Assembly: GCA_030447945.1 (NCBI GenBank)
Contig: JAUJNV010000006.1
Coordinates: 1-25,114 of the forward strand
Direction: 5' to 3'
Length of the DNA: 25,114 nucleotides
Source of the DNA: Fimbriimonas sp.
GTDB taxonomy: Bacteria > Armatimonadota > Fimbriimonadia > Fimbriimonadales > Fimbriimonadaceae
In this document: positions 18,930-19,225 of the stretch, piece by piece
Layout: each line of letters starts with the position of its first letter
How positions within the stretch are numbered: position 1 is the first letter of the stretch
Translations under genes and position numbers: made by a program
The notes under the pieces: model-generated
What the model was told of the DNA's origin: nothing
Database searches by the model: none
Seen by the model: the letters and a program-made list of their open reading frames with translations, nothing else

Positions 18930-19064
18930 ATGTATAGTAAGCGCAACGTGGTCACACGCTCCGCTGCCAGATCGAACGCCGCCGGCTCTCTCGGGAAGCC
19001 CGGGGCGCTCGTGCTTGGTATCGGCCTACTTCTTGGCGTGCTCCTTATTCGGAGCTTAGACTAA
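18930..19064 (+). CDS. Putative ilv leader peptide rich in Leu/Val/Ile near its C-terminus
   Basis: This 44-codon ORF starts at ATG 18930 (MYSKRNVVTRSAARSN...) and ends ALVLGIGLLLGVLLIRSLD before TAA at 19062-19064. Of the last 19 residues 12 are leucine, valine or isoleucine. It lies about 160 nt upstream of ilvB and directly before mutually exclusive RNA pairings and a strong hairpin, which is the layout of ilv attenuator leaders. The ribosome binding site is poor (GGTGG or GGAAAAG). TATAGT at 18932-18937 overlaps the start and could be a -10 box; translation might then begin at GTG 18948 in the same frame. The hydrophobic tail could instead be a single membrane helix of a small membrane protein. 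I consider the leader reading more likely because of the context. Confidence 0.5.
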   Translation: MYSKRNVVTRSAARSNAAGSLGKPGALVLGIGLLLGVLLIRSLD

Positions 19065-19122
19065 CCCCGGGAAGCGAGCCGAACAGACCTAGAGGGCCTT
19101 CCCGGGAACCCGGGAAGGCCCT
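18999..19122 (+). promoter_or_regulatory. Candidate ribosome-mediated attenuator of the ilvBNCD operon
   Basis: Four segments can pair in alternative ways. Segment 1 (18999-19005, CCCGGGG) can pair with segment 2 (19065-19071, CCCCGGG). Segment 2 (19066-19074, CCCGGGAAG) can pair perfectly with part of segment 3 (19098-19106, CTTCCCGGG). Segment 3 (19093-19106) pairs with segment 4 (19109-19122) as the terminator-like hairpin. Segment 2 touches the leader stop codon, so a ribosome reaching the stop would cover it and favour termination. A ribosome stalled on the Leu/Val/Ile codons would leave it free to form the antiterminator. The mechanism is inferred from known ilv and leu attenuators. Confidence 0.55.
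19093..19122 (+). terminator. Strong GC-rich hairpin, terminator arm of the ilv attenuator
   Basis: AGGGCCTTCCCGGG is followed after AA by its exact reverse complement, giving a 13-14 bp perfect stem with a tiny loop. The tail TTCGCGCTTT is only partly T-rich, so intrinsic termination may be weak or need a factor. It stands about 100 nt before ilvB. Confidence 0.6.
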
Positions 19123-19225
19123 TCGCGCTTTACGGCGAGGGGTGCCCCCGCGCGGGGAGCGTGCGCCGCGCGTGCGGCGCCGCGCCCTGACACGGCCGTC
19201 GGCCTCGGGAGGAATGGAAGCGAGG

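Follow-up and report, generated by a model that had tools for sequence, protein, structure and literature searches.

A putative peptide-leader attenuator upstream of ilvBNCD in Fimbriimonas sp. and its relatives

Introduction

In the DNA analysed here (the window, a stretch of 25,114 nucleotides from Fimbriimonas sp.) the ilvBNCD genes follow a short open reading frame (ORF) and a hairpin, which raises the question of whether their expression is governed by a classical transcription attenuator. A preliminary description of the locus had read it in this way, with four RNA segments able to form alternative pairings. The anatomy of the classical enterobacterial attenuators of ilvGMEDA, ilvBN and leu is well established, and the window shares with them a leader peptide rich in the amino acids made by the operon, a segment common to antiterminator and terminator, and a stop codon at which a ribosome ending translation would leave the terminator free to form. 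The best-known attenuators also have a protector stem of segments 1 and 2 (1:2), which the stalled and terminating states do not need. T-box leaders sense tRNA charging and act on termination as well, binding the tRNA directly and having no leader peptide.

Results

The leader contains control codons, competing segments and a terminator-like hairpin

The features of the locus are collected in Table 1. It can be seen that segment 2, segment 3, the hairpin and the sequence CCCGGGG (18999–19005) of the preliminary description are all present, and that the ORF does end in a Leu/Val/Ile-rich stretch, the 12 codons falling within its last 20. The hairpin, originally given as 13–14 bp, has 14 pairs, the outermost being G-T, around a 13-pair core at 19093–19122. 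The stop codon had been said to abut segment 2; TAA 19062–19064 is indeed near it, but one C (19065) intervenes.

Table 1. Coordinates of the features of the leader and the ilvBNCD genes in the window.
Feature	Position	Strand	Remarks
Probable −10 promoter box, TATAGT	18933..18938	+	Ends 9 nt before GTG 18948
Leader peptide ORF, 38 codons + TAA	18948..19064	+	GTG start, probably nearly leaderless; in-frame GTG shared with relatives
Control region, 12 Leu/Val/Ile codons	19008..19058	+	9–14 L/V/I in last 20 codons in 30/30 leaders
Segment 2, CCCGGGAAG, 5' half of antiterminator	19066..19074	+	Pairs with segment 3 in 29/30 regions (not L105)
Segment 3, CTTCCCGGG, common to antiterminator and terminator	19098..19106	+	Complement of segment 2
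Terminator-like hairpin, segments 3:4	19092..19123, loop 19106–19109	+	Found in 30/30 regions
Hexaloop hairpin CTGAC[ACGGCC]GTCGG	19187..19202	+	First of the relatives' tandem pair; no recognisable second in window
ilvB, acetolactate synthase large subunit	19226..20990, end approximate	+	TPP_enzyme_N and TPP_enzyme_C in different frames
ilvN, small subunit	21015..21497	+	Named by eye: resembles ORF after ilvB in L001
ilvC, ketol-acid reductoisomerase	21666..22670	+	Pfam KARI_N, KARI_C
ilvD, dihydroxy-acid dehydratase	23224..25000	+	ILVD_EDD_N, ILV_EDD_C; two overlapping frames

The region 18927–19140 folds more stably than expected by chance, with a z-score of −2.9. The 2:3 duplex of the window is only moderately better than those formed by shuffled versions of segment 2 (fraction 0.095), and in the window alone 12 of 166 other 14-nt stretches of the leader pair better with the hairpin arm than segment 2 does. 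Judged on the window by itself, then, the 2:3 pairing is unremarkable, and the argument has to come from conservation.

The layout is conserved among relatives

Among the matches listed, the IlvC protein of the window is closest to that of the uncultured Armatimonadetes contig L001 (78% identity, the next match being at 66%), and by this sequence comparison the window is closest to Armatimonadota. The class of the genome carrying L001 (G001), with 113 genomes, was taken as the reference class. The N-terminus of IlvB matched in 53 of the 113, and the 30 highest-ranking loci were retrieved. Because L098 stops at ilvB and has no upstream DNA, this left 29 readable relatives and, with the window, 30 regions.

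The leader of L001 has the same layout, a Leu/Ile-rich ORF followed by TAA, CGCCCGGGAAG and then AAAAGGCCTTCCCGG-ACT-CCGGGAAGGCCTTTT. An ORF with 9–14 Leu/Val/Ile codons among its last 20, ending 5' of a strong hairpin, was found in all 29 readable relatives, and in 28 of them, and likewise in the window, the stretch 3' of the stop can pair with the 5' arm of the hairpin, these counts being drawn from relatives that are not independent samples. The hairpins of L102 and L105 were counted with one mismatch allowed. A test with set limits (9 or more L/V/I in 20 codons, a hairpin centre 20–70 nt past the stop and a 2:3 energy of −10 kcal/mol or lower), with thresholds chosen after the first set had been seen, was passed by 29 of the 30 regions, L105 failing it, by 0 of 39 distant ilvB regions and by 0 of 30 regions upstream of Amt. 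Searching for the exact segment 2–segment 3 pattern gave matches in 17 of the 113 genomes, 13 of those at ilvB.

The three segments also change in concert. Written as 5' arm/3' arm/segment 2, C/G/G is replaced by T/A/A in L101 and L103, T/A/A by C/G/G in five leaders and C/G/G by G/C/C in five leaders, part of this substitution table depending on the analyst's alignment register. L096 and L108 have T in the 5' arm and A in segment 2 and keep G in the 3' arm; since 3:4 thereby acquires a G-U pair while 2:3 is kept, this pattern suggests that 2:3 itself is under selection. In L087 (T/G/G), segment 2 does not follow the change beyond a G-U pair. Mutually exclusive 2:3 and 3:4 pairing was found in 29/30 regions together with these concerted substitutions. 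The comparison of leaders across relatives, which had been proposed as a check on the attenuator, thus bears out the control codons, the hairpin and the 2:3 pairing.

The same cannot be said of segment 1. CCCGGGG is a possible partner of segment 2 in the window but is not conserved across leaders, and when a general-form test was applied to it and to a candidate at Leu-Leu-Gly codons, CTTCTTGG (19029–19036), no conservation was found for either. In 6 of the 30 regions, among them the window at 0.050, the 1:2 duplex reaches the 5% level of shuffled sequences or does better.

Translation of the leader probably starts at a GTG codon

The preliminary description had the ORF begin at ATG 18930, with 44 codons. 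This ATG overlaps the −10 region, and the sequence makes GTG 18948, 38 codons before the stop, the more probable start. A GTG at the same distance is found in L081, L083, L084, L087 and L088; a TATNAT box is present in L081, L083, L084 and L088 at the 9-nt spacing that TATAGT has in the window, the −10 box of L087 not fitting the GTG start. Boxes with at least five of six matches to TATAAT within 24 nt 5' of the start were counted in 13 of 30 leaders, for which starts had been picked by hand; random windows from the same regions gave a mean of 0.8 and a maximum of 4 in 2000 trials. The leader message is therefore probably nearly leaderless. The weak ribosome binding site, listed earlier as a weak point, probably reflects this type of message.

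The control codons show a strong bias

A short ORF rich in codons for the regulated amino acids precedes ilvB in 30/30 leaders. In the last 22 codons of these ORFs CTT accounts for 54% of Leu codons, and ATT for 86% of the Ile codons of the leaders, compared with 16% and 27%, respectively, in those parts of ilvB that the 29 fetched loci cover. Among the last 20 residues L, V and I make up 59.8%, F 0.3%, and M and W 0; between relatives, L, V and I are swapped for one another. Codon choice as a determinant of attenuator sensitivity is an established theme, and in the part of PMC1183508 available the leu leader of Salmonella typhimurium uses CUA, in contrast to the CTT and ATT that predominate here. 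With its concerted changes in three segments and its CTT/ATT preference, the present set of leaders may offer a natural test of which codons sensitise attenuators.

Modelled ribosome positions switch the fold

Folds were computed for the transcript as far as the 3' end of segment 3, a ribosome being placed at set positions. With the ribosome at the stop codon, no more than three 2:3 pairs formed in any of the 30 regions, so the fold models support the earlier claim that a terminating ribosome masks segment 2. Moving it 6 codons back from the stop gave six or more 2:3 pairs in 29/30; at 10 codons 2:3 was present in 27/30 (not in L090, L093 and L105) and at 18 codons, with at least five pairs, in 21/30. 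These ribosome-state folds indicate that segments 2, 3 and 4 would suffice for the switch.

In the absence of a ribosome, segment 2 paired with segment 3 in 18/30 regions, the window included, and upstream, as a protector stem would, in the other 12. Since 2:3 is predicted for the window without a ribosome, its untranslated transcripts would be expected to escape termination by the classical protector route. Judged by these models, segment 1 is optional, and the absent protector segment is a deviation and not the loss of a defining feature.

On the sequence comparison and the fold models together, the ilvBNCD leader is very probably a ribosome-mediated transcription attenuator. Of the classical reading, segments 2–4 with the control codons are strongly supported by the comparison, whereas its start and segment 1 do not hold. 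The observed codons, segments, conservation, concerted substitutions and modelled ribosome states are consistent with the following course of events. RNA polymerase would start from the putative promoter, either at GTG 18948 or slightly 5' of it by a few bases, and the nearly leaderless message would be entered by a ribosome making the 38-residue leader peptide. If charged Leu-, Val- or Ile-tRNA were scarce, the ribosome would stall on the control codons and leave CCCGGGAAG free to pair with CTTCCCGGG once the latter had been made; formation of 2:3 would block the terminator, and ilvB would be transcribed. With ample charged tRNAs the ribosome would reach the stop and cover segment 2, allowing 3:4 to pair and transcription to stop 5' of ilvB. 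Both actual termination and the response to branched-chain aminoacyl-tRNA are presumed in this scheme.

Other explanations of the leader

Alternatively, the ORF might code for a small membrane protein whose gene has a terminator of its own, in which case the pairing 3' of the stop would be incidental. The last 20 residues are sufficiently hydrophobic to form a membrane helix, but the interchange of L, V and I, the near absence of F, M and W and the strong CTT/ATT bias argue against such a function, an L/V/I-rich end with scarce F and no M or W being unlike the composition of membrane helices. A single protein search with 18927–19061 returned two candidate homologues, none at E ≤ 1, and the relatives conserve both the placing of segment 2 just behind the stop and its complementarity to segment 3. 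We therefore consider a membrane protein very unlikely. Only slightly less unlikely is control of ilvB by means other than intrinsic termination, for example by Rho or at translation, with the hairpin as a mere stabiliser. It is in line with this that the tail of the window hairpin (TTCGCGCTTT) is T-poor, its longest T-run of 3 agreeing with the poor run noted earlier, and that 10 of the 30 leaders have no T-run of at least 4 at the hairpin. A generic scan of 18500–19400 found no terminator, which, like the short T-run, counts against attenuation. The available text of PMC1262725 further reports that changing the candidate control codons of the Streptomyces coelicolor ilvB leader had no effect; such a leader without codon-dependent control favours this explanation and counts against attenuation. 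On the other side, T-runs reach at least 4 in 20/30 leaders and at least 5, at a G+C-rich hairpin, in 15/30, and hairpin and antiterminator vary together. By sequence, termination appears well supported for some of the leaders and less well for the window.

A T-box riboswitch would be an obvious candidate, given that 12 of 40 distant ilvB loci (L121–L160) carry one (RF00230) at the corresponding place. At gathering score, below which a divergent T-box could fall, none was found in the window or in the 30 close-relative loci, 29 of which have upstream DNA, and we give this explanation next to no weight. A search of 18900–19260 against Rfam at a loose threshold gave seven matches. None came near its gathering score; RF01867, which ranked first, had 24.4 bits where 75 are needed.

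Peptide leader and T-box at the same gene

All but one of the 40 distant ilvB loci belong to other classes of the phylum; L128, one of the 40, includes hardly any upstream DNA. Since T-boxes occur in 12 of these 40 and in 0 of the 29 close relatives, the sequences point to a lineage-specific exchange of T-box and peptide leader at ilvB within one phylum. Such exchanges are known between phyla; in the available portion of PMC2965389 the authors state that, to their knowledge, leader peptides had previously been unshown outside Proteobacteria and Actinobacteria. Among the papers listed by our searches of the open-licence literature, none reports a peptide-leader attenuator in Armatimonadota, and as far as those papers show, the putative ribosome-mediated attenuator of a branched-chain operon would be new for this phylum. 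It would extend classical peptide-leader attenuation to Armatimonadota, where ilvB has a peptide leader in the present class and, in some others, a T-box. In some distant loci, for example L133 and L157, similar CCTCTCGTCC/GGACGGGGGG hairpins were seen with no T-box match at gathering score.

Compared with the enterobacterial attenuators, the present leader lacks a conserved segment 1, probably has a nearly leaderless start and belongs to an armatimonadotal host. Its layout resembles that of the Corynebacterium ilvB-II motif and other actinobacterial ilvB leaders, which, in the excerpts available of PMC10272879 and PMC1262725, have an ilvB operon preceded by an upstream ORF (uORF) rich in branched-chain codons and an intrinsic terminator with a competing stem. 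According to the same excerpts, the uORF of Corynebacterium usually has 15–17 codons, as opposed to 38 in the window, and the competing partner is situated in the loop of P1, inside the region of the uORF, whereas here it lies directly after the stop.

Tandem hexaloop hairpins between the terminator and ilvB

In 20/30 regions (e.g. L083, L087 and L091; not the window) the interval between terminator and ilvB holds tandem hairpins with six-base loops of the R1/G4 type, which have a purine as first loop base and G as fourth; 300 shuffling rounds gave 0.2 such regions on average and never more than 2. The strict A1/G4 form occurs in 10/30, compared with 0.02 in shuffled sequences. Eighteen tandem elements could be aligned, with linkers of 5–11 nt, and most of the second hairpins end shortly before a GGAG-like stretch. 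Their covariation score is 0.39, against 0.16 when shuffled, for rows that had been chosen for pairing.

The dual hairpins targeted by ANTAR proteins such as EutV and NasR likewise consist of two small hairpins with six-base loops. As described in part of PMC3369931, the eut targets of Enterococcus faecalis have A1, G4 and a linker of 5–12, close to the R1/G4 and 5–11 found here, and actinobacterial ANTAR-target RNAs sit over ribosome binding sites (PMC8164766, available text). Unlike targets with A1, the elements here often have G at loop position 1, and the window keeps one hairpin. By this analogy the tandem hairpins are putative targets of an ANTAR protein; none of the papers listed in the literature searches has an ANTAR target at ilvB. 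In Bradyrhizobium, passages of PMC6759348 report that a threonine dehydratase (ilvA) transcript rose when NasT was lost and that genes for branched-chain transport changed as well, most of the affected genes having no clear hairpin.

ANTAR domains exceed the cut-off in 108/113 class genomes, so their presence is uninformative. Among the 30 fetched ilvB-bearing genomes, 29 have one copy and one (G058) has none. At E ≤ 0.001 the domain was seen in 109/113 class genomes, and since many of these have no close ilvB, the ANTAR protein presumably has other targets. In G001 the protein is a receiver-ANTAR whose gene adjoins a HIT-domain gene and lies ~13 kb from an Amt/P-II pair, a neighbourhood that revealed no link to ilvB.

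The 113 genomes were also searched with a model of the tandem element, R1. At E ≤ 0.1 it matched in 32 genomes at 37 places, 19 of which are ilvB sites. The best match elsewhere (L179, E 0.001) falls inside a 513-codon open frame, and the 17 weaker ones were taken as chance. A pattern search for tandem hairpins matched in 70/113 genomes, mostly at uninspected places, and A1/G4 hairpin pairs were found in 0/30 regions upstream of Amt; from model, pattern and Amt searches of the class genomes no other target gene of a tandem-hairpin regulon emerged.

It is conceivable, although we hold this only tentatively and by analogy, that in this class of Armatimonadota ilvB has two switches in series, a nearly leaderless attenuator reading the charging of Leu-, Val- and Ile-tRNA and, placed 3' of the terminator and 5' of the ribosome binding site, a tandem hexaloop element read by the receiver-ANTAR regulator. 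If the ANTAR protein did bind this second conserved element, the leader would have two inputs, the ANTAR-bound element acting on translation and so coupling branched-chain synthesis to nitrogen or to some other signal.

Surroundings of the operon

The leader is preceded by genes for threonine dehydratase and a universal stress protein, and farther upstream, on the opposite strand, by glutamate synthase. An inverted repeat, GTAGTCGCAGGC ... GCTTGCGACTAC (18784–18877), separates the leader from the universal stress protein gene; its 12-mer has no other copy in the window with up to two mismatches allowed.

Apparent indels break the frames of ilvB and ilvD (19226–25000), whereas the ilvB matches of the 30 fetched relatives have no internal stop. 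The breaks are perhaps assembly errors and, since both frames are broken, the window DNA may contain small errors. Between ilvC and ilvD, at ~22658–23218, there is an ORF with no Pfam match; in the corresponding gap L001 has instead an ORF whose translation, judged by eye, is ATP-binding-cassette-like.
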